From IMG/VR virus record IMGVR_UViG_3300022745_000142, positions 1 to 24,170 of that record: a DNA stretch of 24,170 bases. One strand, 5' to 3'. Both the position numbers and the translations under genes were made by a program. A model generated the notes under the pieces. That model was not told where the DNA came from. It did no database searches and saw only the letters and a program-made list of their open reading frames with translations. Below are positions 1,068 through 23,374 of the stretch, piece after piece (the stretch's first letter is position 1; every line of letters starts with the position of its first letter). The stretch comes from a virus.

Positions 1068-1186
1068 TGCTTACCCCTCCACGCCGCCAGCGTATCCATG
1101 ACGTCAAGCACCAGCCACAGCAGCATTGCGGCCGCATAGCCGGCGAGTAGCGCAATGCCGAGGGCGATTTGTCGGATGACTGTCAT
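1064..1186 (-). CDS. 40-residue single-pass membrane peptide
   Basis: Reads MTVIRQIALGIALLAGYAAA, then a hydrophobic MLLWLVLDVM stretch and a DTLAAWRGKQ tail. The ATG overlaps the stop of the HNH gene (ATGA) and the stop overlaps the next start (ATGA), so it fits exactly into the coupled operon. One transmembrane helix spans roughly residues 5-30 with a short basic C-terminus. Its function is unknown; small phage membrane peptides can act in superinfection exclusion or membrane-associated regulation. Reading frame and coupling make it credible despite its size. Confidence 0.62.
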   Translation of the reverse strand: MTVIRQIALGIALLAGYAAAMLLWLVLDVMDTLAAWRGKQ

Positions 1187-1746
1187 TTGCAATCCTCAAC
1201 TTTTATGTGCCTGTAGGTTTCGCCTCTGCGTATCCTGCTGACAACACTCTCTGGTATACCGAAAGATTGGGAAATATATCTTCCGGTAACTTCTGGACCA
1301 AGAAGCCTTATTGCGAGGACTGTTTTTTCATCGACAAGCTTGACCCCTCTTTCTTTCATCGACGAATAAACATTCGACATGTCTGAATTTTTATGCCTAC
1401 CGACAAGTTTGCCAGCCCTAACAACGGCTCTGTATGATTCTTTTTTTGTGAGCCCTGCTCTCATGTGCGCAGGGTTTACACAATCATTACAGCAGCACGA
1501 TCTATATATAATCCTTCCTCTTGCACCCTCGTTATGCGCTATATTCCATACCGCCAGCGTTGCGGTCATTGTCCTTTTTTCTATTCTGTCATGATCAAGC
1601 GCATGCATCATCGGGTATGGCTCGCCATTCGTACCCTTTCCAAACCCGCCCATCCAATGCCAGCAATGTGTAATCGGATCAACCACGCTGCGAGCTTTAA
1701 TATCTGCAACAGTTGATATCCCTCGGCGCAATACATTTTTACTCAT
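1183..1746 (-). CDS. HNH endonuclease-like protein with C-terminal helix-turn-helix
   Basis: 187 residues from MSKNVLRRGISTVADIKARS, starting in an ATGA overlap with the gene upstream. Residues 24-33 (PITHCWHWMG) and 68-95 (NIAHNEGARG to CCCNDCVNPAHM) match the HNH layout CWxWxG...C-x4-C-V-N-P-x-H seen in phage HNH nucleases. In the usual pattern a His sits two residues before the first Cys (HxC), and here that place appears to be Arg82, so activity is uncertain. Residues 140-180 (KTVLAIRLLG, then SQSFGIPESVVSRIRRGETY) form a helix-turn-helix that could give target recognition. The gene is clearly AT-richer than its neighbours, suggesting it was acquired separately, as homing-type HNH genes often are. 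Confidence 0.78.
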   Translation of the reverse strand: MSKNVLRRGISTVADIKARSVVDPITHCWHWMGGFGKGTNGEPYPMMHALDHDRIEKRTMTATLAVWNIAHNEGARGRIIYRSCCCNDCVNPAHMRAGLTKKESYRAVVRAGKLVGRHKNSDMSNVYSSMKERGVKLVDEKTVLAIRLLGPEVTGRYISQSFGIPESVVSRIRRGETYRHIKVEDCK

Positions 1747-2036
1747 GGCCGCGCCCCTCGTGCTGCCGGCCACCAGTTCGGGCGGTCTGGGAACGTGCAG
1801 CGACTGCATGGATACGACGCCATCGAACGCTTGACATCGATGCAACTTGCGCACGCTGGCGTGGCCGCAGCCGGCGGCGCGATGTCGGTACTCAGGCGGC
1901 CGTCTGTGCCCTGGATGATGCCGGGGCGGATGATCTTCGGCGCGGTGGGCGCCGGGGCGGGGGCAGGCCGGGTCGGCGCTCCGAGGGGTTGTTGCTGCGG
2001 CGCGAGGTCGCCGCGTTCACCGGTGTTGAGGCTCAT
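1743..2036 (-). CDS. Proline-rich protein with C-terminal zinc knuckle
   Basis: 97 residues from MSLNTGERGDLAPQQQ, with GGTGAAG just before the ATG. The first half is a Pro/Ala-rich linker (GAPTRPAPAPAPTAP). The C-terminal part has CASC-x10-PCSRC followed by RPNWW. This is the same C-x2-C-x10-P-C-S-x-C-x4-R-P-x2-W spacing as in the partial protein at the left edge. It is probably zinc-binding; function unknown. Its stop overlaps the HNH start. Upstream, a 77-bp gap with a hairpin separates it from the cassette-like block. Confidence 0.6.
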   Translation of the reverse strand: MSLNTGERGDLAPQQQPLGAPTRPAPAPAPTAPKIIRPGIIQGTDGRLSTDIAPPAAATPACASCIDVKRSMASYPCSRCTFPDRPNWWPAARGARP

Positions 2037-2098: not shown

Positions 2099-2105
2099 GT
2101 TAGCC
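2099..2105 (+). other. GTTAGCC core, left boundary of the cassette-like block
   Basis: First of two GTTAGCC copies on the plus strand (2099, 2498), with GTTATCT at the matching place in the third junction (3026). In integron insertion chemistry, G^TTRRRY is cut after the G. At a left boundary the G would come from the target and TTAGCC from the cassette. No complementary GGCTAAC lies upstream, as expected if this is a target junction and not a complete attC. Confidence 0.5.
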
Positions 2106-2113
2106 GGCCCGCG

Positions 2114-2335
2114 TCACTTCGACGCAGCAGCCTTTGATGCGGCCCGCAGTTCGCAATAGCGCTCTGTGCCGTCGCCGATAGCGCACGGAATGTCCAGCGG
2201 ATCGGCGCCGTTCTTCTGCATCTGTTTGGCGGCCTCGGACCTGGTGTAAACGTTGGTGGCCGTGCAGCCGGCCATCGCTGAAAAGATCAGACCGGCGGTC
2301 ACGCACATGGTGCGGCAGTAATTGGTGTCTTCCAT
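2114..2335 (-). CDS. Small putative lipoprotein
   Basis: 73 residues starting MEDTNYCRTMCVTAGLIFSA and continuing MAGC, with a clear AGGAG before the ATG. A hydrophobic segment (CVTAGLIFSAMAG) ends at Cys19 in a context near the lipobox consensus (A-M-A-G-C), so the product is probably lipidated at the membrane. The mature part has two further Cys (IPCAIGDGTERYCELRAAS) that could form a disulphide, and an Ala/Lys-rich tail. Phage lipoproteins are sometimes superinfection-exclusion factors; that role is a guess. It lies inside putative cassette 1 with long spacers on both sides, unlike the overlapping neighbours. Confidence 0.65.
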   Translation of the reverse strand: MEDTNYCRTMCVTAGLIFSAMAGCTATNVYTRSEAAKQMQKNGADPLDIPCAIGDGTERYCELRAASKAAASK

Positions 2336-2355
2336 CTTGCTTCTCCTAGTCCGCC

Positions 2356-2402
2356 CTCGCTGCGCGAAGGCTTGTTGAATACATACGCGACTCGCTGCGC
2401 GA
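2356..2402. repeat. Pair of 12-bp direct repeats CTCGCTGCGCGA upstream of the lipoprotein gene
   Basis: CTCGCTGCGCGA occurs at 2356-2367 and 2391-2402, 35 bp apart, each followed a few bases later by CTTG. Each copy is itself nearly palindromic (TCGC-TGC-GCGA). They lie 20-70 bp upstream of the leftward lipoprotein start, where a regulator could bind. No matching promoter is clear. Confidence 0.5.
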
Positions 2403-2446
2403 GACGCTTGCGGTACGCTGGCCTGTGTCACTGCGTGGCACCAGCC

Positions 2447-2504
2447 GGCTAACCCCTCGCACCATCCCGAGGCCTAACGGCCCGGGTGTGCTCGGCCGTT
2501 AGCC
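2447..2504 (+). repeat. attC-like (59-base-element-like) site A
   Basis: The outer cores GGCTAAC (2447-2453) and GTTAGCC (2498-2504) are perfectly complementary. Inside follow unpaired spacers CCCTC and TCGGCC. The stem then has GCAC/GTGC, A/T, CCCG/CGGG and GGCC/GGCC around a TAAC loop. All unpaired stem bases (C2463, T2465, A2470) lie on the left arm. A 58-bp site with complementary R''/R' cores, an unpaired central spacer and one-sided extrahelical bases is the attC architecture. A competing hairpin (2471-2482 with 2494-2504) is also possible and might end leftward transcripts. Confidence 0.6.
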
Positions 2505-3026
2505 AGCACCAATACATGCGCGCCAGCGTCCCCGCGTCAAACGGTGTGAGTGCCTTCCACGCCGCGCGCCATCCGCGCCTTTGTGCGGCGCTGAAGCGCG
2601 GTTTGAGCCTGCTCCATGCAGGCAAGCGCTTCAGCGTTGTCGGCGCTGTGGTACGGGCCGGCCTGGAAGCAGCGCATGCGGTCGCACAAGATCGCCAGCA
2701 GCGCCTCGTGCGTCAGGCCATTCACGCCAACCTCGCTGATAGGGCCGTTCTGGAAAAGAATCGTGGTCCTGCTTTTCGGCGGCACGCCATCGCTCGGCAG
2801 CGAAGGGTTAGTGCCCGTCTCGAAGCCGGAAATCTCGTACAGGTGGCAAGCGCCGCCGCTCCCCGGCTCGTCCAGCACGCTCACGGTCAGCGTGTCGTTC
2901 GCGGGGTTCACTTTGTGGTCATTCAGTTCACGCATTTCAGTTCCTCAGTCGGTGCCAGCGTTTGCATCCAGTGCTGGCTAACTGGCGGTTCAAGCGGACC
3001 GGAGTACCGGCCGCTTAACCTATACG
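2499..3026 (+). mobile_element. Putative integron-type gene cassette 2 (Acb2/Tad1-like gene plus attC-like site)
   Basis: The unit runs from TTAGCC after the G at 2498 to the G at 3026, 528 bp. It carries one gene on the minus strand (2537-2935) and attC-like site B at its right end. Site B has left core GGCTAAC, complementary to the TTAGCC that begins this unit and cassette 1, as expected if its original right core was GTTAGCC. The right core now reads GTTATCT, as expected when the last six bases come from the insertion target. Confidence 0.5.
2537..2935 (-). CDS. Conserved phage protein with C-terminal helical hairpin; possible Acb2/Tad1-type counter-defence protein
   Basis: 132 residues from MRELNDHKVNPANDTLTVSV, with GAGGAAC before the ATG. 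The N-terminal half is beta-rich (TLTVSVLDEPGSGGACHLYEI, TTILFQNGPI). The C-terminal half is two helices: VNGLTHEALLAILCDRMRCFQ (71-91) and NAEALACMEQAQTALQRRT (100-118), ending RMARGVEGTH. I recognise the FQNGPI/GVNGLTxEALL/RGVEGTH signature as a widespread phage family. From memory, hairpin proteins of this kind have been grouped with Acb2/Tad1, which sequester cyclic nucleotide signals of CBASS or Thoeris immunity. I could not verify that membership. The gene lies within putative cassette 2, bounded by long spacers, and reads with the phage operon. Confidence 0.7.
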   Translation of the reverse strand: MRELNDHKVNPANDTLTVSVLDEPGSGGACHLYEISGFETGTNPSLPSDGVPPKSRTTILFQNGPISEVGVNGLTHEALLAILCDRMRCFQAGPYHSADNAEALACMEQAQTALQRRTKARMARGVEGTHTV

Positions 3027-3032
3027 TTATCT
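2976..3032 (+). repeat. attC-like (59-base-element-like) site B
   Basis: Left core GGCTAAC (2976-2982), right core GTTATCT (3026-3032). The inner stem is GGTT[C]AAGCGG[A]CCGG at 2987-3002, loop AGTA, then CCGGCCGCTTAACC at 3007-3020. Pairing is perfect except for extrahelical C2991 and A2998, both on the left arm. Classical attC sites read TTCAAGC..A on the left and GCTTAA on the right with the same C and A extrahelical. The 57-bp length also fits. The right core is not complementary to the left one, which fits a junction with foreign target DNA. Confidence 0.65.
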
Positions 3033-3380
3033 GACATTTGCGCGTGAAACTGGGGTGCGCCGCTGCTGTAGTATCAGCCGCGCGCACCGTTCGCGCTCGG
3101 TGTGCAGCTCGCCAGCCAGGCGGGCGATGGTCAGCTCTTGGCAGTCGCACAGCTTGCGCAAGTCGCTGCGGTCCTGCGCGGTCTCGTGCTGCAGCACTAC
3201 AAGTTCAGCGACGCGGTGCTGCAGCGCACGCAGCCCTGCATCAGACTGCTGCAGCCGGTCGGACAGATCCGACAGCAGCCGGGCGACTTGACTGACACGG
3301 CCGGTGCGCAGGGGCCACCAGAGCCGGCCCAGGCTGTTGCTGACCGATCGGGCCAGGGTGATGGTGTCGGCGTTGCTCAT
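3027..3380 (-). CDS. Coiled-coil phage protein, 117 aa
   Basis: Starts MSNADTITLARSVSNSLGRL in an ATGA overlap with the gene upstream. Residues about 30-105 are a continuous heptad-rich helix (VARLLSDLSDRLQQSDAGLR, LQHRVAELVVLQHETAQDRS, LTIARLAGELHTERERCARL). It is probably an oligomeric structural or scaffolding accessory; function unknown. The stop codon TAA (3029-3027) lies inside the GTTATCT core of attC-like site B, so the proposed cassette insertion lies exactly at the 3' end of this gene and leaves its product unchanged. Confidence 0.65.
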   Translation of the reverse strand: MSNADTITLARSVSNSLGRLWWPLRTGRVSQVARLLSDLSDRLQQSDAGLRALQHRVAELVVLQHETAQDRSDLRKLCDCQELTIARLAGELHTERERCARLILQQRRTPVSRANVR

Positions 3381-3715
3381 GACTTCCCCAGCGCAGCCAC
3401 GAGGGCTGTGAATCCGATTCCGGAACGACCGGACGCCGCGAAGCGCCACTTCCCTGCGCCGACAGTCGGCCAGATATCGACGGTGCCCTGCCCGACCTTG
3501 ATCTGCAGATGCAAACCGCCGTTTCTGATGATGACTTCGTGCCCAGCCTCTTCAAGTCGCGCCGCAAAAGAGGCGGCGGCGTTTTCCTTGGCGATGCTGA
3601 TCGGCGGCGTTCCGGGGCTGCGTGTTGCGTGCAGGATGCGGCGGTCTGCCGCCTGTTCGCCCGGGCTAGTGCGGTCATTGATGCGGCGGATCGCCTCGGC
3701 TGTGTGCCTGTTCAT
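3377..3715 (-). CDS. Hypothetical phage protein, 112 aa
   Basis: MNRHTAEAIRRINDRTSPGE starts in an ATGA overlap with the coiled-coil DNA-binding gene and ends in an ATGA overlap with the next gene. Residues 42-60 form a helix (AKENAAASFAARLEEAG). The rest alternates beta strands (HEVIIRNGGLHLQIKVG, TVDIWPTVGAGKWRF), suggesting a small alpha/beta fold. No domain recognised. Conserved coupling on both sides supports it being real. Confidence 0.65.
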   Translation of the reverse strand: MNRHTAEAIRRINDRTSPGEQAADRRILHATRSPGTPPISIAKENAAASFAARLEEAGHEVIIRNGGLHLQIKVGQGTVDIWPTVGAGKWRFAASGRSGIGFTALVAALGKS

Positions 3716-4545
3716 GCTGCACCGCCTTCCGAGCGCACGCCGATCGCATCAAGCCGCGCCAGCGCCCGGGCCGTGATATCTGTCATGCACTCATCACCCG
3801 CCCAGTCATCCGGGTCCAGGGCCATGTCGAGCATCTCGATGTCGGCACATATCAGTGGTAACTGCAGGCGCAGCCGCTCGACCTCGGCGCGCAGCTGGTT
3901 GCACTCTCGTGTCAGGTCTGACACGGCGCAGTGCAGGTCTTCGCGCTGATCGGGTGGAGTTGACTTCAGCTGCTCGACCTCGGCGCGCAACTGCCGGATG
4001 TCAACTGCGTTTGCGCCGCACACCGCCTCGGCCTCAACCAAAAAGCTGGCCGATGCCTCAGCGCGCCGTTTGTAGTCAGCCAGCTCAGCGCGCAGCCTGG
4101 TCAGCTCCGGGTGAGCATCGCGCCATGCATCCATCATCGCGCCGATGTGCCCCCATCCGTCGCCACTGCGGTCGATCAGATGCCAGGCCACGGCGCCATC
4201 GACAGCGCTCCAGTCCGGCTCTGCGCCGATGTCCGGCACAAAGAGCCGAGCCCGCAGTGTTGCGATCAGCTCGTCCCGCTCGGCAATCTGCCGGCGTGTG
4301 TCGTCGAGCTGGGTCTGCAGCGGGTTCGCTGCCGGCTCGGCCGTCTTGATGCCCATCTTCTGGGCCAGCGTGTGCACGTCGGATGTGCGGATGCGACGGT
4401 GACCGCCCGGGGTGCGCCCGGCGTGCAAATCGCCGCGCTCGACGTAGTTCTGCACGCTGCGCAGCGTCACGCCGAGCAGCAGCGCTGCCTCGCGGGTGGT
4501 CAGGAACGGATCGGCCGGGTCGTGCGGCGTTTGTGATCTTGTCAT
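3712..4545 (-). CDS. MerR/excisionase-type helix-turn-helix protein with coiled coil
   Basis: 277 residues from MTRSQTPHDPADPFLTTREA. AAAGGAAAG precedes the ATG, which overlaps the stop of the small regulator (ATGA). Residues 14-65 (FLTTREAALLLGVTLRSVQN, YVERGDLHAG..GGHRRI) are the classic MerR/BldC-type HTH where the wing reads GGHRR. Residues 80-110 and 150-245 are coiled coil with three LRAE(L/V) repeats (LRAELADYKRRAEA, LRAEVEQLKS, LRAEVERLRLQL). The acidic C-terminus is LDPDDWAGDECM. It is probably a DNA-binding oligomer co-made with the upstream regulator. Target and role (regulation, segregation or nucleoid binding) are unknown. Confidence 0.78.
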   Translation of the reverse strand: MTRSQTPHDPADPFLTTREAALLLGVTLRSVQNYVERGDLHAGRTPGGHRRIRTSDVHTLAQKMGIKTAEPAANPLQTQLDDTRRQIAERDELIATLRARLFVPDIGAEPDWSAVDGAVAWHLIDRSGDGWGHIGAMMDAWRDAHPELTRLRAELADYKRRAEASASFLVEAEAVCGANAVDIRQLRAEVEQLKSTPPDQREDLHCAVSDLTRECNQLRAEVERLRLQLPLICADIEMLDMALDPDDWAGDECMTDITARALARLDAIGVRSEGGAA

Positions 4546-4730
4546 GATCTTTCCTTTACCGGCGGCTTGCCGGACACCCTCATGATTGCCAGTAGTGTGC
4601 TGGCTTTGAGTTCGGCCCCGGGCCGCAGCGAGCGGATCAGGGTGCTTCGGTCGATGCCTGCTGCAGCGGCAATCTGGCCCTGAGTCCAGCCGCGTCGCTG
4701 CAGGCGCTTGATGTGTTTGATGTGGTCCAT
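4542..4730 (-). CDS. Small Cro-like helix-turn-helix regulator
   Basis: 62 residues: MDHIKHIKRLQRRGWTQGQI, AAAAGIDRSTLIRSLRPG, then an ELKASTLLAIMRVSG helix. Residues 15-36 are a typical XRE/Cro-type HTH. The ATG at 4730 is preferred over one at 4778, because 4778 lies directly next to the TATAAT box (4784-4779) and would fall upstream of the transcript start. No Shine-Dalgarno is visible. A palindrome 8 bases before the start occupies that position. It is the first gene of the leftward operon next to two matching operators, so it probably represses its own and the rightward promoter, as Cro does. It is too short to carry a CI-type cleavage domain. Confidence 0.75.
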   Translation of the reverse strand: MDHIKHIKRLQRRGWTQGQIAAAAGIDRSTLIRSLRPGAELKASTLLAIMRVSGKPPVKERS

Positions 4731-4737
4731 GTAGCAA

Positions 4738-4755
4738 TGATGCAAGCATGCATCA
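4738..4755. promoter_or_regulatory. Palindromic operator O2
   Basis: TGATGCAAGCATGCATCA has perfect 7-bp arms (TGATGCA/TGCATCA) around AGCA and matches operator O1 at 16 of 18 positions. It lies between the predicted leftward transcript start and the regulator ATG. Bound protein there would block the leader; in RNA it can form a hairpin that replaces the ribosome-binding region. It is probably autoregulatory. Confidence 0.65.
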
Positions 4756-4778
4756 CGCAATGCAAGCGTTTTGCGCAA

Positions 4779-4784
4779 ATTATA
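4779..4784 (-). promoter_or_regulatory. -10 box of the leftward early promoter
   Basis: A perfect TATAAT on the minus strand lies about 50 bases before the regulator start. Seventeen bases upstream the -35 position reads GTGCAC, a poor match to TTGACA, so the promoter may be weak or need an activator. A degenerate operator-like AGATGCGTGCACGC (4796-4809) covers that position. Confidence 0.55.
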
Positions 4785-4812
4785 GCGCTGACCCTAGATG
4801 CGTGCACGCCAC

Positions 4813-4841
4813 TTGACGTGATGCACGCATGCATCTACATT
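4813..4841 (+). promoter_or_regulatory. Sigma-70-type rightward early promoter
   Basis: TTGACG (4813-4818), a 17-bp spacer, and TACATT (4836-4841) make a good consensus promoter about 55 bases before the first rightward gene. Operator O1 fills the spacer and touches the -10 box, so a bound repressor would block RNA polymerase directly. Confidence 0.65.
4819..4836. promoter_or_regulatory. Palindromic operator O1
   Basis: TGATGCACGCATGCATCT has arms TGATGCA/TGCATCT and matches O2 at 16 of 18 positions. It lies exactly between the -35 and -10 boxes of the rightward promoter. Two near-identical palindromes at a divergent promoter next to an HTH gene point to a lambda-like switch. Confidence 0.65.
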
Positions 4842-4895
4842 TGAGCCACGCCGCAACGACAGGCCCGCCGAGCCGGGAGCGGGAAGGGGTGAAAA

Positions 4896-5862: not shown

Positions 5863-6017
5863 TCCGCGCTGCACTCTGGCTCACCGCTGCCCGGCTGCTG
5901 ATCTCGCTGCGGGTTGCGATCTGGTGCGGCAGCGCAGTGTGGCGTGTCGTGCTGGCCTGGTTGATCGCGGCTGCTGTCGCGGCGCTGCTGGCGGTGCTGC
6001 CTGTTTACTGGGATTGA
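5859..6017 (+). CDS. Small membrane protein, 52 aa
   Basis: Starts at GTG in a GTGA overlap with the preceding gene and reads VIRAALWLTAARLLISLRVA, IWCGSAVWRVV, then a strong hydrophobic LAWLIAAAVAALLAVLPVYW stretch. Probably one or two membrane helices with basic residues between. No family recognised. It is likely a partner of the tail-anchored protein encoded just before it. Confidence 0.55.
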   Translation: MIRAALWLTAARLLISLRVAIWCGSAVWRVVLAWLIAAAVAALLAVLPVYWD

Positions 6018-6028
6018 TGAGGCGAAAA

Positions 6029-7033
6029 ATGAACGAGTCAACGAATGCAATCGCGCTGATCGGCGCACAGCTGGCCGAGTTTGATGCCGTCGAAGCCGGT
6101 CTGAGTGATCTGGAGCAGAAATTCAGCGGCGTCGCCTTCGCGGTGACGACCACCAAGGGCTTGGCAGAGGCCATCGCCGCACGGGCCGCCTGCCGCGCGC
6201 CTCGCGTCAAAGTCGAGCGGGTGCGCAAAGGCGCCAAGGCCCCGGTACTGGCCCTTGGTCGCAGTATCGACAGCCGCGCCGCCGAGATCACCGCCCGGCT
6301 GGTGGCGCTGGAAGATCCGATCGATGATCAGATTAAGGCCGAGGAGGCGCGGAAAGAAGCCGCGCGCGCCGAGAAAGAACGGGTCGAGCGTGAACGGCTA
6401 GCCGCCATCGCCGCTGCCGAGCTGGCCGAGCGCGAGCGCGTCGCCGCCGAAGCGCGGCGCGTCGAGGAAGAGCGCCTGGCCGCCGAGCGCGCCGAACTGG
6501 CCCGCCAGCGCGAGGAACAAGAGCGCGCCGCCGCCGCCGAGCGTGAGCGCATGGCAGCCGAGCGCAGAGCGGCAGAGGCAAAGATGGCGGAAGAGCGCCG
6601 CATTGCCGCCGAAGCATTGGCGGCCGAGCGCGCGGAAGCTGAGCGGCTGGCGCAGATCGAGCGCGACCAGCTCGCCGCTGAGCGCGCCGAGTTCGAGCGC
6701 CAGCGAGCTGCAGAACGCGCGGCTGCGGAGGCGGCGCGACTGGCGCGTGAAGTGGAGGCCCGCCGCGCCGCCGAAGAGGCTGCCCGAGTCCAGCGCGAGC
6801 ACCTGGCCGCAGTGCGCGCAGCCGAAGCCGAGGCGGCACGCCTGGCGCAGATCGAGGCCGATCGCGTTGCTGCCGAACGCGCCGCCGCTGATGCTGCAGC
6901 GGAGAAGGTGCGCGCCGCTGCGCCGCTGATGCTGGAGGCGCTGATTGCGCTTGTCGAGGCCGACGACGCGCAAGAGCTGCACAGCGGCCTATTCGAGGAT
7001 GCGCGCAAGGCTATTGACGCCGCCCTGAATTGA
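6029..7033 (+). CDS. Long Ala/Glu/Arg-rich coiled-coil protein
   Basis: 334 residues from MNESTNAIALIGAQLAEFDA. GAGG lies six bases before this ATG; an in-frame ATG at 6017 is an alternative. Residues 1-105 form a separate domain (LSDLEQKFSGVAFAVTTTKG, RAPRVKVERVRKGAKAPVLA). Residues 106-285 are an uninterrupted charged coiled coil with recurrent ERLAAERAE-like repeats. The C-terminus (APLMLEALIALVEADDAQEL..ARKAIDAAL) is a small helical cap. Phage proteins with this plan often lie just before single-strand-annealing genes. The coiled coil gives TolA-like similarity that should not be over-read. A bridging or nucleoprotein role is possible. Confidence 0.7.
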   Translation: MNESTNAIALIGAQLAEFDAVEAGLSDLEQKFSGVAFAVTTTKGLAEAIAARAACRAPRVKVERVRKGAKAPVLALGRSIDSRAAEITARLVALEDPIDDQIKAEEARKEAARAEKERVERERLAAIAAAELAERERVAAEARRVEEERLAAERAELARQREEQERAAAAERERMAAERRAAEAKMAEERRIAAEALAAERAEAERLAQIERDQLAAERAEFERQRAAERAAAEAARLAREVEARRAAEEAARVQREHLAAVRAAEAEAARLAQIEADRVAAERAAADAAAEKVRAAAPLMLEALIALVEADDAQELHSGLFEDARKAIDAALN

Positions 7034-7062: not shown

Positions 7063-7173
7063 ATGAAGCACAGAAAACTCTACCGAGCCGTTTACGCCGA
7101 ATACATCCAGCATGGCGCAGAATATGCGCGCCAGATGGCTCGTGATATCGCGTTTCACGGCACGCCGTTTTGA
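7063..7173 (+). CDS. Tiny protein, 36 aa
   Basis: MKHRKLYRAVYAEYIQHGAE then YARQMARDIAFHGTPF, with GAAGG seven bases before the ATG. It is basic, helical and Tyr-rich. It occupies the gap between the coiled-coil gene and the ATPase gene. No family recognised; the Shine-Dalgarno and position support it being real. Confidence 0.5.
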   Translation: MKHRKLYRAVYAEYIQHGAEYARQMARDIAFHGTPF

Positions 7174-7207
7174 GGCGCTACACAGTTGCAATGTTGGAGC
7201 AGTTGAA

Positions 7208-7864
7208 ATGAGTACAGCAGTCTTAATTCTTGGTGAATCAGGTTCCGGGAAATCTACCAGTCTTCGATTTCTCGAACCCGAGAAAGTCATGCTCATCCAA
7301 GCGGTTAGAAAGCCACTGCCGTTCCGGTCGGCAGACTGGCAAATCGCGAGCAAAGAAAACCCTGAAGGCTCAGTGATTGTTACCGATAACAGCCAGAAAA
7401 TCTGCGCAATCATGCAGCGCACAAAGCGTGACATCATCGTGATCGACGATTTTCAGTATGTCATGGCGAACGAGTTCATGAGGCGCGTGACGGACCAGGC
7501 CAAGGGAAATGAAGCGTTCCAAAAATACAACGAAATCGGCCGAGCCGCTTGGGACATATTCAACACGGCCGGGCACTTGCCAGAAAACAAACGAGTATAT
7601 ATACTCTCGCACAGCAGTACCGATGAGCTTGGAAACACAAAGCTCAAGACAATCGGCAGGCTGCTGGATGAAAAGATAGTCCTTGAAGGAATGCTGACAA
7701 TAGTCCTTAGGGCAATACGAAAGGATGGCGAAAACTACTTCAAAACTCAAAACAGCGGAAATGACACAGTGAAGTCGCCGATTGGAATGTTTGCTGAAGA
7801 CCAAATACCGAACGATCTAGCAGCCGTAGACGCTGGAATCTGTGAATACTACGGAATCAAATAA
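7208..7864 (+). CDS. Sak4-like AAA ATPase (AAA_24 type), phage recombination
   Basis: 218 residues from MSTAVLILGESGSGKSTSLR, with GGAG before the ATG. Walker A GESGSGKST is at residues 9-17 and Walker B IIVIDDFQY at 76-84. ILSHSS further on fits the sensor/His region, and KTIGRLLDEKIVLEG and FKTQNSGNDTVKSPIGMF are typical of phage AAA_24/Sak4 proteins. These are RecA/Rad51-core ATPases that act with a phage single-strand-binding protein in homologous recombination. The next gene encodes such a protein, which supports the call. The region is visibly AT-richer than the flanking operon, suggesting it was exchanged as a module. Confidence 0.82.
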   Translation: MSTAVLILGESGSGKSTSLRFLEPEKVMLIQAVRKPLPFRSADWQIASKENPEGSVIVTDNSQKICAIMQRTKRDIIVIDDFQYVMANEFMRRVTDQAKGNEAFQKYNEIGRAAWDIFNTAGHLPENKRVYILSHSSTDELGNTKLKTIGRLLDEKIVLEGMLTIVLRAIRKDGENYFKTQNSGNDTVKSPIGMFAEDQIPNDLAAVDAGICEYYGIK

Positions 7865-7879
7865 CCTGAAAGGTTGGAA

Positions 7880-8545
7880 ATGCTGAAACTTAATACGCAG
7901 TTGGCACAAGACGCCGATAATATTGCCAGCTCTATAAGCGAGCTTGGCAAGTACATCGGAACAATTACCCGCGCTGAAAAACTCGTGAGCAAGCAGAAGG
8001 GAACGCAAGGCCTGGGATTGTCGTTCAAGGCCGACAACGGCCAGTCAGCCGACTATCTCGACCTGTACCACACCAAGGGCGATGGAACGCAGCTGAGCGC
8101 GGCAAAAACGGTCAACGCTATCCTGTGCTGCGCCCGCGTCAAGCAGGCCGAAGATGGCGTGATCGATGTCGAGAAGTGGGACAAGGCCGCAGGCCAGCGC
8201 CGCAAGATGAGGGTCAACGGCTACCCTGCGCTGATGGGTAAACGGATCGGCTTGCTGTTGACGCAGATCATGGAGACCGGCACCGATGGTAAGGATCGCA
8301 CTAAGCTGGAGATTTTCGGCGTGTTCGACCCGGAAACCGAGCTGACCGCATCCGAGATTCTGCAGCGCAAGACGACGCCCGAGCGACTGTCATCCATGCT
8401 GGACGCGATGATCAAGCGCGGTGTGCAGGACAAGCGCAAGAAGCCCGCGCACCGCAGCGCCAGCGCCGGGCAAGATCGGTTCGACGACATCCCAATTGGC
8501 GATGTGCCGGCCGACGCCAGCATGGATGACGACATCCCATTTTAG
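7880..8545 (+). CDS. Phage single-stranded-DNA-binding-like protein with SSB acidic tail
   Basis: 221 residues from MLKLNTQLAQDADNIASSIS (AAAGG before the ATG). A central beta-rich region (GLGLSFKADNGQSADYLDLY, MRVNGYPALMGKRIGLLLTQ, TKLEIFGVFDPETELTA) is compatible with an OB-type fold. After a basic low-complexity linker (KRKKPAHRSASAG) it ends ASMDDDIPF. That DDIPF tip is the hallmark of bacterial SSB proteins, which recruit partners through it. Placed after a Sak4-like ATPase, it is probably the ssDNA-binding partner of the recombination system. The fold is inferred; the tail is seen directly. Confidence 0.75.
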   Translation: MLKLNTQLAQDADNIASSISELGKYIGTITRAEKLVSKQKGTQGLGLSFKADNGQSADYLDLYHTKGDGTQLSAAKTVNAILCCARVKQAEDGVIDVEKWDKAAGQRRKMRVNGYPALMGKRIGLLLTQIMETGTDGKDRTKLEIFGVFDPETELTASEILQRKTTPERLSSMLDAMIKRGVQDKRKKPAHRSASAGQDRFDDIPIGDVPADASMDDDIPF

Positions 8546-8560
8546 AAATTAAATAGTAAA

Positions 8561-8579
8561 GCCCGGCCACGCGCCGGGC
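8561..8579. terminator. GC-rich hairpin between the SSB-like and Gp157-like genes
   Basis: GCCCGGC and GCCGGGC pair perfectly around CACGC. On the minus strand the stem is followed by TTTACTATTTAATTT, so it resembles a terminator for leftward transcripts, yet there is no leftward gene here. On the plus strand no T-run follows. It could stop antisense transcription or protect mRNA ends. Confidence 0.4.
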
Positions 8580-8592
8580 GCAAGGAACAATC

Positions 8593-9087
8593 ATGAGCCT
8601 CTACCTGATCGCCACCGAATACCGCCAGGCACTCGACACGCTGGCCGAATCCGACCTTGATCCTCAGACGCTGGCCGACACCTTGGAAGGGCTGGATGGC
8701 GAGCTGCAGCCGAAGTCAATCGCAGTCGCCATGTGGGTGCGCAACCTCGACGCCGAGGCCGACGCCATCGAGGCGGCCGCCAAGGCCATGCAGGATCGCG
8801 CCAAGGCTGCGCGCACCAAGGCCGAGCGCACGCGGGCCTACTTGCTGCAGTGCATGCAACTGGCGGGCGTGGAGCGCATCAGCTCGCCGCATGTCGTGCT
8901 ATCGGTGCGAGCCAACCCGGCCGGCGTCGAGATCGAAGACGAAAGCCAAATCCCGGCCTCCTACATGACCGAGCCGAAGCCGGTGCCGCCGAAGCCGGAC
9001 AAGACGTTGATCAAGCGGGCGCTGCAAGATGGATTCGAGGTGCCGGGCTGCAAGCTGGTGCGGGGCGCATCCCTGCGGATCAAGTGA
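8593..9087 (+). CDS. Siphovirus Gp157-like protein
   Basis: 164 residues from MSLYLIATEYRQALDTLAES, length typical of the Gp157 family. The N-terminal half is helical (QTLADTLEGLDGELQPKSIA, VAMWVRNLDAEADAIEAAAK, AMQDRAKAARTKAERTRAYL). The C-terminal half has the family signature: a beta segment (VVLSVRANPAGVEIEDESQI), then IPASYMTEPKPVPPKPDKTL and IKRALQDGFEVPGCKLVRG. Members lie near phage recombination/replication genes; one was linked with resistance to phage, but biochemical function is not settled. Confidence 0.82.
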   Translation: MSLYLIATEYRQALDTLAESDLDPQTLADTLEGLDGELQPKSIAVAMWVRNLDAEADAIEAAAKAMQDRAKAARTKAERTRAYLLQCMQLAGVERISSPHVVLSVRANPAGVEIEDESQIPASYMTEPKPVPPKPDKTLIKRALQDGFEVPGCKLVRGASLRIK

Positions 9088-9095
9088 ACAGCAAG

Positions 9096-9338
9096 ATGAG
9101 CACCCGCGAGCGCGCGCACGTCAGCCGGGTCAAGGAACTGCCGTGCTCGGTCTGCGACGCGCCAGGGCCGAGCGAGGCGCATCACGTCGAACAGGGGTTG
9201 CACTTCACGGTCGTGGCGGTCTGCGTTGAGTGCCATCGTTGTCCGGTCCTTGGCCTCCATGGGCAGCGCCGGGCTTGGGCCATCCGCAAGATGACAGAAC
9301 TCGATGCGCTGAACGTGACGATCGGGCGGCTGGCGTGA
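9096..9338 (+). CDS. Ref-like HNH nuclease (RecA-dependent nuclease family)
   Basis: 80 residues from MSTRERAHVSRVKELPCSVC. A GTG at 9084, overlapping the preceding stop (GTGA), would add VNSK and is an equally good start. Cys17/Cys20, HH at 29-30 (EAHHVEQG), Cys43/Cys46-His47 (CVECHR) and GLHGQRRAW (53-61) give the layout C-x2-C...HH...C-x2-CH...GxHG of the Ref family, small HNH nucleases related to P1 Ref that nick DNA bound by RecA. It is shorter than P1 Ref and holds only the nuclease domain. Context (Sak4, SSB, NinB) supports a recombination role. Confidence 0.72.
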   Translation: MSTRERAHVSRVKELPCSVCDAPGPSEAHHVEQGLHFTVVAVCVECHRCPVLGLHGQRRAWAIRKMTELDALNVTIGRLA

Positions 9339-9344
9339 TATGAT
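9315..9344 (+). promoter_or_regulatory. Extended -10 promoter for the candidate small RNA
   Basis: TGATATGAT (TGn plus TATGAT, 9336-9344) is an extended -10 element with one mismatch to TATAAT. GTGACG, 18 bp upstream, is a partial -35. A start near 9351 is expected. The promoter overlaps the 3' end of the Ref-like gene. Confidence 0.5.
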
Positions 9345-9350
9345 GCGGGC

Positions 9351-9465
9351 ATCTGATCTGGGTGGGACCGGTGATGATGCACAAATCGAGCCCCTTGGCT
9401 CTTGCGTTCGGCCGCCCAGCGGCATCCGGTCCCACACGGAGAGCGCAAGGACCAAGGGGCTTTTT
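9351..9465 (+). ncRNA. Candidate structured small RNA with pseudoknot
   Basis: Between the Ref-like and T5orf172 genes, a promoter and a terminator frame about 115 nt with no convincing ORF. Arm A GTGGGACCGG (9362-9371) pairs perfectly with A' CCGGTCCCAC (9426-9435). Arm B AGCCCCTTGG (9389-9398) pairs perfectly with B' CCAAGGGGCT (9452-9461), extended by CTTGCG/CGCAAG (9401-9406/9444-9449). The order A-B-A'-B' makes a pseudoknot. GCCGC/GCGGC (9411-9423) adds a small hairpin in the loop. Linkers of 17, 19 and 8 nt make it sterically possible. Not matched to any RNA family I know. It could equally be a DNA structure such as an origin. Confidence 0.5.
9389..9465 (+). terminator. Rho-independent-like terminator with long loop
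   Basis: AGCCCCTTGG-ct-CTTGCG pairs with CGCAAG-ga-CCAAGGGGCT and is followed directly by TTTT, giving the usual stem plus U-run. The loop is 37 nt, unusually long, and contains A' of the pseudoknot. It may end both the candidate small RNA and part of the early operon transcript, so it could also be an attenuation point before the T5orf172 and NinB genes. Confidence 0.55.
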
Positions 9466-9492
9466 GCGTTCTGGGATGCGTAGTGGACGACG

Positions 9493-9609
9493 GTGACGCA
9501 TCCGACAAAGTGGCAGCCGGGCACCAAGCCACCAGACGAGTTTCAGCGTGATCGAATCGCTCGGGCCGGATGGCGTGCAGTGCCGTCGAAGGATTCGAAG
9601 CCGTGGTGA
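9493..9609 (+). CDS. Possible 38-residue peptide
   Basis: From GTG at 9493: VTHPTKWQPGTKPPDEFQRD, RIARAGWRAVPSKDSKPW, then TGA. The composition (Trp, Pro, charged) looks protein-like, but there is no convincing Shine-Dalgarno and the start is GTG. Apart from this possible gene, 9466-9723 holds only the palindrome at 9605-9617 and nothing else recognised. Confidence 0.3.
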   Translation: MTHPTKWQPGTKPPDEFQRDRIARAGWRAVPSKDSKPW

Positions 9610-9617
9610 CTGTCACC
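9605..9617. repeat. Perfect 6+1+6 palindrome
   Basis: GGTGACTGTCACC is a perfect inverted repeat, followed closely by CTCGGCCGAG (9619-9628), also palindromic. It lies about 110 bases before the T5orf172 gene. It may be a protein-binding site. No promoter elements are clear. Confidence 0.4.
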
Positions 9618-9723
9618 AACCTCGGCCGAGCAAACCGATGCCACAGGCTCCGGAGAGCAGACGCAGGCAGGCCGATCAACCGGTCAGCTTGCTCGCACCT
9701 CAACCAACCCACCAGAGAGCAGC

Positions 9724-10563
9724 ATGAGTAACGTCACGAACTTCAGCTTCAACGGCGCCGATGTGCGCCAACCAACGCACCGTGACATCGGGTTTGTTTA
9801 CGTGGTCGAGGACGCCGCCACGGGCCGCGTGAAGATCGGAATGAGTCGCACGCCAGACCGCAGAGTAAAATCCGTTCGATCGTCAGCGGGGATTGCGAGC
9901 GGAAGGGATCACATCTCGGTCCGCGTGAAGAACGCGAGGGCCGTTGAGGCCGCGGTACATCTGGCGCTTTCAGGATCTCGCTTGCAAGGCGAGTTCTTCG
10001 GGTGCGGGTTTGATGAGGCTGTGTCAGCAGTGCAGGCCGTGGCAGGATCAGACGCGGCCGATGACGACTACGCGGCCGCTCGCAAGCTTGAGCAGCAGGA
10101 GCGCGGCCGCTCTATTTGCGATGGCGTCAAGCGACTTGTCTGCGAATGGTCGCCGCCAAGCTCCATCAGCGATGAGCAAAAGTCAAGGCTTGTCCACGCC
10201 AGAAACTTCGCAGCCGTTACGAACTCGACTTTGGGCGATCTTTTGGCGGTTGCCGAGTGGGCGACAGGGGGCGACATGGCGGTACTCAGTAGGTCGGCTG
10301 ACGATGAGAGCTTCTTCTGTTTTGACGGGCTTGTCGGAGCGGTTGAGCCTGTCACGGTGGCAGCGATTTACCGGGCGATTGCCTACGCTGGGCAGATTGG
10401 GGTGACGTACGGCGGCGGGAGGGATTGCGCTGACGACGAAGCCGAAGACTCAGAAGAGGAGTTCACGGCAGATCGGAGCGGCGCAATCCGCAAGTCCAGC
10501 GCCTACGCCGACCACGCAGCCGTCGCAGCTGCGCTGCGCGAGTATCTGGGCAAGCGGGCCTGA
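9724..10563 (+). CDS. T5orf172 / GIY-YIG domain protein with Bro-N-like N-terminal stub
   Basis: 279 residues, starting MSNVTNFSFNGADVRQPTHR. Residues 23-45 (GFVYVVEDAATGRVKIGMSR) carry the GIY-YIG-type beta strands. They are followed by TPDRRVKSVRSSAG, VEAAVHLALSGSRLQGEFF and a helix, the T5orf172 layout with conserved H and E of the nuclease core. The first 15 residues (NFSFNGADVR) resemble the start of phage Bro-N/antirepressor proteins, as if a Bro-N domain had been lost. Residues 120-279 are unassigned, with an acidic stretch (DDEAEDSEEEF) and a helical end. Possibly a regulator or nuclease; activity not certain. Confidence 0.68.
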   Translation: MSNVTNFSFNGADVRQPTHRDIGFVYVVEDAATGRVKIGMSRTPDRRVKSVRSSAGIASGRDHISVRVKNARAVEAAVHLALSGSRLQGEFFGCGFDEAVSAVQAVAGSDAADDDYAAARKLEQQERGRSICDGVKRLVCEWSPPSSISDEQKSRLVHARNFAAVTNSTLGDLLAVAEWATGGDMAVLSRSADDESFFCFDGLVGAVEPVTVAAIYRAIAYAGQIGVTYGGGRDCADDEAEDSEEEFTADRSGAIRKSSAYADHAAVAAALREYLGKRA

Positions 10564-10565
10564 TC

Positions 10566-10997
10566 GTGGACCGCGTATCCCTCAAGCTCATCAACCCGGT
10601 GCAGGCCGCGCCGCTACTGGCCGACCTGTGGCGGCACATCAAGGCCGCGCTGATCGCCGGGCACACGCTGTGCCTTGAGCTGAGGGCAGAGACGCGGACG
10701 ACGGCACAGAACAGGCTGATGTGGTCATGCCTGGCCGACGTGGCCCGCCAGGTCGAGTGGCACGGTCAGAGGCTCGACGCCGAAGCATGGAAGGACATGG
10801 CGACGGCGGCACTCAAGCGGCAGCGCGTCGTGCCGGGTATCGATGGCGGCTTTGTGGTTCTCGGCCAGCGCACCAGCAAGATGACTAAAGCCGAAATGTC
10901 AGAGCTGGTCGATTTTCTTAGGGCTTTCGGCGATCAACACGCCGTGAAGTGGTCGAAGACGTCACTTGGCCGCGAATGGCCGGAAGGGGATTTATGA
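10566..10997 (+). CDS. ninB: NinB-family recombination protein
   Basis: 143 residues from a GTG start (VDRVSLKLINPVQAAPLLAD), close to the usual NinB length. Recognisable parts: LCLELRAETRTTAQNRLMWS (QNRLMW motif), LADVARQVEWHGQRLDAEAW, RVVPGIDGGFVVLGQRTSKM (G-x-RTSKM motif) and MTKAEMSELVDFLRAFGDQH. Lambda NinB (Orf) binds single-stranded DNA and helps RecA-type or Red recombination load past SSB. It is the last gene of the rightward operon and ends one base before the convergent small membrane gene. GTG start without a strong Shine-Dalgarno. Confidence 0.85.
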   Translation: MDRVSLKLINPVQAAPLLADLWRHIKAALIAGHTLCLELRAETRTTAQNRLMWSCLADVARQVEWHGQRLDAEAWKDMATAALKRQRVVPGIDGGFVVLGQRTSKMTKAEMSELVDFLRAFGDQHAVKWSKTSLGREWPEGDL

Positions 10998-12808: not shown

Positions 12809-14614
12809 TCAAACAGTGTATGCACCAGTTACAAAAAGAGAACCAGCCGCATCAATTGCCAGCAATGCTAATGCTCCACCTGCCACATCCAGTGAGTATA
12901 AAGACACTTGCGTTGCGCCAGATACAATCCCTGCTCCTAATTGCTTTCCAGCACCAATGACTAAGCCGTCAAACACAACAGAAGCAGGCTGTGTTTGACC
13001 GGTAACATTTTTAGCAGCAAAAGGTAAACCAGCTGCTTTCATAGACCCGGTCCCAGTGTGCCCACTCCAAATAAGTGAAATTGAATAGTTAACTTGATTA
13101 CCGATACGGGTATAAGTACCGACCTGAGTTGTATAAGTAGCTGCTCCAGCCGTAATTGTTCCGGTGATAGTCGGGACAAAAGTCCCTTCTTCGTAGTTAT
13201 TCAAAATAGTATTTACAACAGTTCCGGTGCTTGCAGATCCTGTGTTTCCAAATTTCTCTCCGGCACTAGTGATAGGAACCCCGTTCAATGAAGAATCGTT
13301 ATTCCACATAAACGACGCCGAGCCGCTTATTGCAGCACCTGCTCTGTCTCCCAATCCCTTGAAGTGAAACAAAGTCCCAATGTGGATGCATGGTGCCGAA
13401 CTGAAAACAGAGCCATAGCTGTTATTCATACTAACAATTGATGCCGCTTGAAGTACATCAACTGAATATTGCCCAGCTGTAGGTAGAAAAGTATTTGAAG
13501 AAATTTCGACTGCTTGGCAATTTATAGTTGCTGTACCTGCAAGAGTTGTCGTTTGAAATGAAATACACGGTCCCGTTGCTACTTCGCACTCATTTCTCGA
13601 AAATACTACAGGCTGAGCACCAGCGAATCTTACAGCTTGAATACCGCCGTTGAAGTTGTTATCGATAATGCTGTGAATTATGCCGCCATCATCTACAATA
13701 CAATACCCGGTTGTTTGGTTGAATTGGTTATTGTCGATTGTAATACGATTTGTGAAATATGGCTGAGCGGAAGGAGTATGGTCAGCAAAATTACACAACC
13801 AAATTGCTGCCGAAATTTGCGGGTTGAACACGCATCGTGAAATTGCTGCAATTTCAGTTTGGTCGAAAATAACACCGTATTTGAAGCCCTGAAAATAGCA
13901 GTGTTCGACAAACACCATCGACCCACCAACATCAACGTATGCCCCACCAACGTTTGACAAATTAGTGCAAACCAACCCGACGTCAACTATTTTTGTATTT
14001 ACTGGTGTACTTGAGTTGATAGGCGAAGACATCTTTATACCATCACCGGTCCCAGTGAAAAGCATAGTAGAAGTACGTTTCCCAGCCCCGCGTAGTGTCG
14101 TGTTGATTTTCATTGCCAGCGTTGACGATACTTTGTACAGGCCTGCCGGGAAATATATGTCGCCGCCAATGTTGATCGCCGCTTGAATAGCAACAGTATC
14201 ATCTGTGCTGCCATTCCCGACCGCTCCAAAGTCCTTGACACTGACAAAATCATCAAGCCTTTGCTGAACGTTGCGTCCGGATGTTGTGCCCAACAGGCTG
14301 GCGCCCTGGCCCGAGCCTGTGCTGGCGTACAACCCCTCCGGGGGCTGAATGTCGTCCACATCATAGCCGACCGTGGCGCCAGCGCTTGTGGTCAGGTGGA
14401 AGGTGTAGACCTTGGTCGGATCAAGCCATATCTCGGCCTCGCCCCGTGCGTTGAGCTGAACAGGGTTCGTCCTCGGAGTCGTCAGCGCTGCGTCGGAATA
14501 GACCGGCTGCGGCGTGGTGGTCCCGCTGACGTATGTATACAGCAGCCCTCCGACGAGCGGGGCGCCATCGTCTGTGAAACCGCGAAATGTGGTGCCGGTG
14601 AGTAGGTGTGCCAT
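12809..14614 (-). CDS. Beta-helix tailspike (pectate-lyase-like), receptor-binding protein
   Basis: 601 residues from MAHLLTGTTFRGFTDDGAPL. Residues 1-90 are a conserved phage tail-attachment head (GGLLYTYVSGTTTPQPVYSD, NARGEAEIWLDPTKVYTFHL, DVDDI). Residues 123-165 (FVSVKDFGAVGNGSTDDTVA, then GGDIYFPAGLYKVSS) are the signature of the Pectate_lyase_3 right-handed beta-helix, continuing to about residue 420. The C-terminus (GTFVPTITGTITAGAATYTT, YTRIGNQVNYSISLIWSGHT) is a beta-rich trimerisation module. It probably binds and may cut host surface polysaccharide. Composition changes abruptly from GC-rich to AT-rich near residues 112-125, marking a receptor-domain swap. Confidence 0.85.
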   Translation of the reverse strand: MAHLLTGTTFRGFTDDGAPLVGGLLYTYVSGTTTPQPVYSDAALTTPRTNPVQLNARGEAEIWLDPTKVYTFHLTTSAGATVGYDVDDIQPPEGLYASTGSGQGASLLGTTSGRNVQQRLDDFVSVKDFGAVGNGSTDDTVAIQAAINIGGDIYFPAGLYKVSSTLAMKINTTLRGAGKRTSTMLFTGTGDGIKMSSPINSSTPVNTKIVDVGLVCTNLSNVGGAYVDVGGSMVFVEHCYFQGFKYGVIFDQTEIAAISRCVFNPQISAAIWLCNFADHTPSAQPYFTNRITIDNNQFNQTTGYCIVDDGGIIHSIIDNNFNGGIQAVRFAGAQPVVFSRNECEVATGPCISFQTTTLAGTATINCQAVEISSNTFLPTAGQYSVDVLQAASIVSMNNSYGSVFSSAPCIHIGTLFHFKGLGDRAGAAISGSASFMWNNDSSLNGVPITSAGEKFGNTGSASTGTVVNTILNNYEEGTFVPTITGTITAGAATYTTQVGTYTRIGNQVNYSISLIWSGHTGTGSMKAAGLPFAAKNVTGQTQPASVVFDGLVIGAGKQLGAGIVSGATQVSLYSLDVAGGALALLAIDAAGSLFVTGAYTV

Positions 14615-14623
14615 GTGGTACTT

Positions 14624-16858: not shown

Positions 16859-18312
16859 CACAGATCCTCGAAGTTGATGATCTTGCTGGCGCCAGACGCG
16901 GCGGGGGTGGTCGCTCTCGGAAGGGTGCCGGTGCGCCGGCCGGGGGCCTGAGCCGGTGCGGCTACCCCGGACGCATCAAGCGCCTGACCCGCAGCCTTCG
17001 TGCCAGCCCTGCCGGCTCGTGCCTTGAGTGATTCGATGTACAGCGGGATGGCATCAAGCTTTTGCTGGGTCGTCCCAGGCTTTTCGCCCCATACCGGCGT
17101 CAGCTCCTGGATTTTCTGCGCCGCCTCGTCTCGGTTCACACCTGCACCGGTTGCCGCTCGCAACAGCGCCTCGCTGAGTGAGCTGGCCGACTGGTTGAAT
17201 TTCTGCCGGCCCTCGCTGCGCATCGCATTGCCAACGCCGGAAAGGCCTGGGATGCCTGCAACTACATCGGCTGCACCGGGCGCCATCGCCGACGGATCGG
17301 CCTTGATGACGTTGGACATGTTGGCAAAGGCGTTCGTCGCCTGCACCAGCCAGCCGGCTGCCTTACCCTGATCCTCGGTCATGCTGCCATCCTTGCCCGG
17401 CAGCGGCGCCCTGTTGGCGTCTGTCACCACGTTGGCGACCACCGTCCTTCCGAGCGGTGCCTTTGTCGGGAGGCCGACGATGTTGCCTGACGAGTCGGTC
17501 ATGTAGGTCATGCCGGGCACTTGTGTTGCGCCGGCCTGCGCGATCTGCTTCTTGGCTTCGATGAGCGGCGCGTTCGGCACAAACTGCCCAGGTGCTGCGC
17601 CGGGGATCAGGTTCCGGTTTGCCACCTCGCTCACCTGGTTGTCGCGCCTTAGCTGGTATTCAAGCCGCTTCAGCTGCAATTCGGCTTTGCCTTTGGCATC
17701 CTGCAGCTTGTACAGCGTCTGATCTTGCCACTGCTGCCACTGTTCTGGCGTTGACAGGCTCATCAGTTGCCGAGATATGCCTTGCGCTTCCTGCTGTCCG
17801 ATTGATCCTTCTGCAGCGGCTTTGCGCAGGCTTTCCAGCGCTTCAGCCGGGGAGCCAAGCGACATTATTTCGCCGATGGCCTTGTCATGCTTTTCGGTTT
17901 CAGCCTTGAGCTGTAGTGCTTGAGTTTCTGCCGCATTCTTGCCGGCAATGGCGGCTTGCGCGGTTGTTTGCGCTCCCAGGTGGCCTATTTCTGCCGTCGT
18001 TTTGGTGGACTCAAGTCGCGCCTTTCGCAATGCCTGCGCCTGCGCCATGGCATAGGGGTTGCCACTGCTCTCGGCCGCCGCGATTTGTTCATCCTGCGTC
18101 ATGCCGGGTCGCAGCATGCTTCGGTATGCCGCCTGATCGGCCCGCGCCTGCGACTCGTCTTGCAACTTGCCTTGCGTGCTCTGCAGCTGCAGCGCGTTCA
18201 TCTGCCGCGCCTGCCTGGCGTCGTCCTGCGCTGCGTAGGCGTTTTGCCAGTCGAGCGCCGACTTTGCCGGCTGCAGCAGGGCGTTATAGATCGATGTGTC
18301 AGCTTGTGCCAT
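16858..18312 (-). CDS. Internal virion / DNA-ejection protein (gp20-like position)
   Basis: 484 residues from MAQADTSIYNALLQPAKSAL, with GGGGTG just before the ATG; a GTG at 18318 is an alternative start overlapping the preceding stop. Residues 25-240 are Gln/Ala-rich helix (DDARQARQMNALQLQSTQGK, LQDESQARADQAAYRSML, ETQALQLKAETEKHDKAIGE). Residues 290-430 are more compact, and the tail (APAQAPGRRTGTLPRATTPA) is low-complexity, ending SKIINFEDL. Helical, Gln/Ala-rich proteins in this place are ejected with the genome in P22-like phages. The family was not identified from sequence alone. Confidence 0.68.
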   Translation of the reverse strand: MAQADTSIYNALLQPAKSALDWQNAYAAQDDARQARQMNALQLQSTQGKLQDESQARADQAAYRSMLRPGMTQDEQIAAAESSGNPYAMAQAQALRKARLESTKTTAEIGHLGAQTTAQAAIAGKNAAETQALQLKAETEKHDKAIGEIMSLGSPAEALESLRKAAAEGSIGQQEAQGISRQLMSLSTPEQWQQWQDQTLYKLQDAKGKAELQLKRLEYQLRRDNQVSEVANRNLIPGAAPGQFVPNAPLIEAKKQIAQAGATQVPGMTYMTDSSGNIVGLPTKAPLGRTVVANVVTDANRAPLPGKDGSMTEDQGKAAGWLVQATNAFANMSNVIKADPSAMAPGAADVVAGIPGLSGVGNAMRSEGRQKFNQSASSLSEALLRAATGAGVNRDEAAQKIQELTPVWGEKPGTTQQKLDAIPLYIESLKARAGRAGTKAAGQALDASGVAAPAQAPGRRTGTLPRATTPAASGASKIINFEDL

Positions 18313-18314
18313 GA

Positions 18315-19043: not shown

Positions 19044-19144
19044 AATATGACACCATGCCGTGAAAATTTCGCATCAACCATCGTCAAACGCTTGGACGGT
19101 TCGGCGATCTGCTTGCGCCACTTGTACACCACCGGATAGCTCAT
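19040..19144 (-). CDS. 34-residue peptide in the late operon
   Basis: MSYPVVYKWRKQIAEPSKRL, TMVDAKFSRHGVIL. It starts two bases after the preceding stop, and its own stop overlaps the gp7-like start by ATGA. Basic with amphipathic strands. No family recognised. Its place between coupled genes suggests it is translated and may aid coupling or be a minor virion part. Confidence 0.5.
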   Translation of the reverse strand: MSYPVVYKWRKQIAEPSKRLTMVDAKFSRHGVIL

Positions 19145-19146
19145 GG

Positions 19147-19937: not shown

Positions 19938-19938
19938 G

Positions 19939-21351: not shown

Positions 21352-21382
21352 GCGAGGTCAATCATTACCGGCAGGGGATGGA

Positions 21383-22852: not shown

Positions 22853-22862
22853 GATTTACTCC

Positions 22863-23366: not shown

Positions 23367-23374
23367 TTGAATCC

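Follow-up and report, generated by a model that had tools for sequence, protein, structure and literature searches.

Integrons are usually viewed as tools of bacterial resistance and, recently, also as stores of antiphage defenses. The 24-kb IMG/VR virus record analyzed here, whose whole stretch of 24,170 nt we call the window, carries phage recombination and structural genes (PHROG matches), and an earlier note made from its letters had read two genes of the early operon as integron-type gene cassettes. The locus raises the question of whether a phage can hold genuine integron cassettes at such a place and by what means they would be exchanged. We found that positions 2099 to 3032 do comprise two cassettes, 399 and 528 bp long and bounded by attCs, in the phage early operon, as had been proposed. 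With two attCs and no integrase in the record, which may be a fragment, the array is a CALIN. We assign a probability of roughly 78% to the full reading, in which this integrase-less two-cassette array belongs to a class with inverse polarity and is served by the IntI of a host.

Sites were sought with two covariance models. R1 was built on ten class 1 integron attCs, and R2 on class 1 attCs together with those of G001 (IMGVR_UViG_3300043393_000053), a 41-kb phage contig otherwise unrelated to the window; the window sequence was absent from the training of R2. The features of the record are as follows.

1183–2036, minus strand: genes past the array in the same direction, namely 1743–2036 and an HNH endonuclease-like gene at 1183–1854 (PHROG endonuclease match for the latter)
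2099–2105, plus strand: core GTTAGCC, left boundary of the array, crossover G/TTAGCC (exact match; pairs with the cassette 1 R″ box GGCTAAC at 2447)
2100–2498, plus strand: cassette 1, 399 bp, core to core, its two ends complementary across and past the core
2114–2335, minus strand: cassette 1 gene, an ORF on the strand opposite attC for a small protein of 73 aa with a lipobox-like MAGC motif (by eye)
2447–2504, plus strand: attC site A, cassette 1 (R2 31.3 bits, E 2.9e-6; hairpin z −4.0)
2499–3026, plus strand: cassette 2, 528 bp, 74% homologous between core and R″ box to a cassette of G001
2537–2935, minus strand: cassette 2 gene, homolog of Tad1 (Thoeris anti-defense 1), 132 aa (profile, phmmer, Foldseek)
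2976–3032, plus strand: attC site B, cassette 2 (R2 30.6 bits, E 4.5e-6; R1 21.4 bits; hairpin z −3.8)
3026–3032, plus strand: right boundary core GTTATCT (from the sequence; AGATAAC on the gene strand)
3027–3380, minus strand: early-operon gene that immediately precedes the array when read in gene direction (ORF)
3377–4727, minus strand: further leftward early genes, 3377–3715, an HTH_17 protein at 3712–4542, and an HTH protein at 4542–4727 (Pfam HTH_17, HTH_3)
7112–10997, plus strand: phage recombination genes Sak4 (7112–7864), SSB (7874–8545), Gam-like (8593–9087), and NinB (10566–10997), from PHROG
12809–24070, minus strand: structural genes for tail spike, DNA ejection, head closure, and head–tail adaptor, from PHROG

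The array lies inside the leftward early block, bracketed by genes 3027–3380 and 1743–2036. Gene 3027–3380 has no family match in Pfam or PHROG, and its TAA stop falls inside the right-hand core. Elsewhere in the record, the interval between the divergent early genes (4730–4840) contains repeated GATGCA..GCATGCATC-type palindromes that look operator-like by eye only, and a long plus-strand ORF just before Sak4 (5924–7033) is very rich in Ala, Glu, and Arg and coiled-coil-like.

Exact matches to GTTAGCC occur at 2099, 2498, and also 18471, to GGCTAAC at 2447 and 2976, and to GTTATCT at 3026, so that the cores and both sites are where the earlier note had put them. The R″ and R′ cores of an attC are present, and GTTAGCC departs from the GTTRRRY consensus at one position. 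Because of this core, a strict search for canonical R boxes missed the window sites; an Rfam search gave no match. When the bottom strands were folded, sites A and B each formed a single hairpin (−17.9 and −14.3 kcal/mol) with unpaired spacers and with bulged bases on the L″ arm only, and site B carries the L boxes TTCAAGC/GCTTAA; the attC-type structure proposed earlier is thereby borne out. In a circularized cassette, pairing between the two ends extends past the core, and the outer stem reaches 12 bp in cassette 2 and 11 bp in cassette 1.

Scanning the window with R1 found site B alone (21.4 bits, E 0.0011) and missed site A. With R2, sites A and B ranked first and second, both on the plus strand, and the runner-up scored 12.5 bits; on the minus strand, site A scored 8.2 bits. 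R2 gave few matches when run on other phage loci totaling about 1.6 Mb, and the strong ones resemble real attCs. The model recovered the published attCs of Vibrio phage Va_90-11-286_p16 and Tetrasphaera phage TJE1 and gave a marginal match in Caulobacter phage Jess A (14.9 bits), whereas it returned no attC match in Polaromonas phage Tiera, Pseudomonas phage Persinger, or Polaribacter phage P12002L. P12002L has published attCs, and R2 therefore does not find every kind of attC. These results establish that sites A and B are attC sites.

The product of cassette 2 is a homolog of Tad1. A profile search matched it to the Tad1 chains in the PDB at about E 1e-24, phmmer did so at 1.6e-11, and Foldseek returned 7uaw as the top match (E 5.8e-10). 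Similarity to cbTad1 (PDB 7uav/7uaw) extends over the full-length fold as well as the sequence, with 35% identity; the difference is that the predicted Tad1 of the window is the payload of an integron-type cassette. Acb2 was also considered for this protein and was rejected, the sequence and fold tests both giving Tad1. A GAGGA motif lies a few bases ahead of the Tad1 start, and translation would therefore need no cassette promoter. For the cassette 1 protein, we found no Pfam or PHROG match and no viral relative. Between the attC and the gene of this cassette lies a 12-bp direct repeat, CTCGCTGCGCGA, at 2356–2367 and 2391–2402.

Cassette 2 has a counterpart in G001, with 74% identity from the core to the R″ box and zero homology outside it. 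Judged from this alignment, cassette 2 is a core-bounded unit common to unlike genomes. G001 contains 12 to 13 attCs on one strand, in an array flanked by lysis-type and RecT-type genes, and a terminase-like gene is present (by eye from the translations). Two of its attCs have long exact boxes in common with the aacA4 attC of class 1 integrons. Acb2_Tad1_hairpin proteins are carried in cassettes of G001 and G010, and the payloads of further phage arrays include Dam methylase, other DNA methyltransferases, RNA ligase, Lar, MazG, Band_7, and DHHA1 proteins. Many cassette proteins are without a family match; those with an assignable function are mostly of phage type. A DHH/DHHA1 phosphoesterase gene recurs in cassettes of several unrelated phages (L243, L245, L238, around 4001–4850), and its product may degrade cyclic nucleotides or oligonucleotides.

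In classical arrays, the gene lies on the attC top strand and the attC follows the gene. Both window genes lie opposite the attC strand, departing from this usual, though not strictly required, plan, and the genes of G001 are arranged in the same reversed way. Of the cassette plan put forward in the earlier note, the attC-bounded units stand, but the arrangement is not the classical one, a point which that note had missed. Further phage arrays were gathered by motif search and through relatives of the gene beside one array, and polarity was scored with a home-made measure, the better coding strand of each cassette, with which all homology-supported cassette genes agree. Genes were opposite the attC in 60 of 65 cassettes (35/38 plus 25/27) from 14 phage contigs, compared, under the same scoring, with 0/10 in class 1 integrons and 3/37 in the betaproteobacterial chromosomal integron of Piscinibacter defluvii, a control of one genome (Fisher's exact test, 8e-22, although the cassettes of an array are not independent of each other). 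Counted by contig, each of the 14 scored leaned to the opposite strand. Inverse polarity also appears under independent annotation in MW202573, where R2 places the attCs on the minus strand and every deposited gene of the stretch is on the plus strand. In Vibrio prophage p16, which captured host cassettes, the genes are mostly on the same strand as the attC, and the TJE1 array is classical in polarity, so phages hold both kinds. The attC hairpin precedes each gene in the phage arrays, and some gene starts fall within the attC. The recurrence of inverse polarity, seen in the window plus about fourteen further viral genomes, suggests that phages have a swappable cassette pool of their own.

If circular cassettes matter, the two ends of one cassette should be more complementary than the ends of neighbors, and this is what we observed. 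Of the 4 variable positions, 3.58 paired between the start core of a cassette and its own R″ box (62 phage cassettes), compared with 2.68 ± 0.07 after permutation (largest of 2000, 2.94) and 2.78 for neighbors, which form the integrated site. The six bases past the core show a like pattern (3.08 versus 1.93). Over 12.9 kb, the phage contigs G006 and G021 have 99.85% identity, after which they differ by one cassette. Identity runs up to the core G/TTAGGC; beyond it, the attC body and the gene differ, with similarity confined to some 28 bases beside R″. Thus, a cassette was replaced between near-identical phages of another lineage. In a wider comparison, G021 and its relative L235 have flanks that are 86% and 77% alike around an array that differs. 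The DHH-type cassettes of L243 and L245 are 87% identical, and their homology stops at the core; L242 and L245 have one gene in common within 8.8 kb, of the DHH type (93%). Phage cassette arrays look mobile on this evidence, which comes from phages other than that of the window. The array region itself had no relative in a DNA search of 50,697 phage records, and searches baited with Sak4, the HTH_17 protein, and the cassette 1 protein returned no close synteny or no relatives. The earlier suggestion that both cassettes were inserted together gains no support here: no empty-site relative was found, and the end sequences of the two cassettes differ.

PF00589, the tyrosine recombinase family, had no match above the cut-off in the window, G001, G002, G006, G009, G010, G011, G013, or G021, and accordingly no intI match in the 24-kb record as a complete integron would have. 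G003 has one PF00589 match, and a gene beside the G021 array scores below the cut-off and is prophage integrase-like by eye. Since PF00589 was not found in most phages with arrays, the recombinase is probably a host IntI acting in trans. In phage arrays of this class, the attC sits at the 5′ end of each gene, with the gene on the attC bottom strand. In the mechanism that we propose, cassettes would be circularized and reinserted by the IntI of a host integron, which would recombine a folded attC bottom strand either with another such strand or with a secondary site of the GTT type. Read along the gene strand, the core is RYYTAAC and can thus hold a TAA stop, and insertion at an early-operon stop (TAA/C) would place the cassette after the upstream gene and leave that gene intact. 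A cassette of the classical plan placed this way would run antisense to the operon, and only an inverse one would be read with it, which could be why phages keep inverse cassettes. Of the 63 cassettes in which a gene was called, 17 have its stop exactly in the core, no more than the chance of one frame in three; this frequency is compatible with the TAA/C argument, which is mechanistic. From cassette 2, a predicted Tad1 sponge would be made early in infection and bind Thoeris signals, and from cassette 1, a small lipoprotein-like protein would be expressed. Cassettes are reportedly able to enter genomes outside attI at GTT-type sites by attG secondary-site insertion (Richard et al., 2024). The phage arrays are alike in the use of GTT-type sites outside attI and differ in that the presumed targets are operon stop codons and that many insertions are stacked as arrays.

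Three other readings of the locus were weighed. The view that the palindromes arose by chance or are hairpins of an ordinary phage kind rather than attCs could appeal to the failure of the class 1-only R1 at site A and to a core slightly off consensus, but it is hardly credible given the R2 scores, the strand preference, the low background, and the core-to-core homology with G001. It is conceivable, if improbable, that the hairpins derive from attCs, are now immobile, and are kept by phages as regulatory elements, either as terminators or for control of translation. The placement of one before each gene, some gene starts inside the attC, and the lack of an integrase in these phages would suit such a role. 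Against it stand the complementarity kept between a cassette's own ends over that with neighbors, the replacement at a core between phages of 99.85% identity, and the fact that homology of common cassettes stops at cores.

Ordinary capture would make the phage a recipient of classical cassettes from a host chromosomal integron, as happened in Vibrio anguillarum phage p16. This precedent and the similarity in sequence of phage attCs to class 1 and betaproteobacterial attCs favor it, yet we hold it unlikely as well: nearly all phage cassettes are inverse, whereas those of the Piscinibacter integron, class 1 arrays, and p16 are not; the assignable payloads are mostly phage-type genes; and Tad1 genes in bacterial genomes have no clear attC nearby. 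We favor an inverse-polarity phage array worked by a host IntI. The broader proposal, for which we see about even odds, is that phages of betaproteobacteria-like hosts draw on a common pool of inverse-polarity cassettes, including counter-defense genes, that are swapped singly at operon stops by borrowed host integrases, a viral counterpart of the bacterial integron defense library.

Compared with classical cassettes of class 1 and chromosomal integrons, those of the window share the attC architecture, the crossover at the core, complementary ends, and a single main gene for each attC; they differ in having the gene on the opposite strand, the attC at the 5′ end of the gene, no intI found, and a phage operon as their setting. 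The earlier note knew of no described phage with integron cassettes, but such phages had already been reported: in 10,705 phage genomes, the available text of Qi et al. (2023; PMC9892861) counts 3 complete integrons, one In0, and 17 CALINs, including MW202573, with TJE1 also from that study, and IntI1 recombined five of the six phage attCs tested. Both the existence of CALINs in phages and the action of IntI1 on phage attC sites are, therefore, already published. Those CALINs are likewise clusters of attCs and cassettes without an integrase in phage genomes; the available text has no remark on inverse polarity and reports neither Tad1/Acb2-type payloads nor near-identical phages that differ by a cassette (Qi et al., 2023; PMC9892861). 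A literature search that covered few subscription papers and left aside bioRxiv did not find systematic inverse polarity, sponge-type anti-defense cassettes, or a core-exact difference between near-identical phages, and the novelty of these three is provisional. If phages do keep polarity-matched cassettes of their own and swap counter-defense genes (Tad1, the Acb2/Tad1 hairpin, Lar, methyltransferases, and RNA ligase) through host integrases, phage and bacterium rely on one recombination system in their arms race. The movement of single anti-defense genes between otherwise unrelated phages would then also be explained. The matter bears on how cassettes are made, because the phage attC sits at the other end of the gene.

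Several minor observations came from the same searches. Piscinibacter defluvii (G029; L318–L323) gave at least 126 attC matches with R2, which make up a very large chromosomal integron distributed across many contigs; L323, one end of it, had no match in an IntI1 search. The G002 contig (L205) holds two separate arrays in opposite orientations, 8521–10246 (plus) and 15064–15815 (minus), both of inverse polarity. Further phages have lone attC-like sites with R2 scores of 30 to 37 bits (L154, 11212–11271; L104, 13585–13641; L097, 14494–14546; L015, 312–424), and on the L015 contig a Tad1 gene lies about 1.4 kb from the attC-like site.
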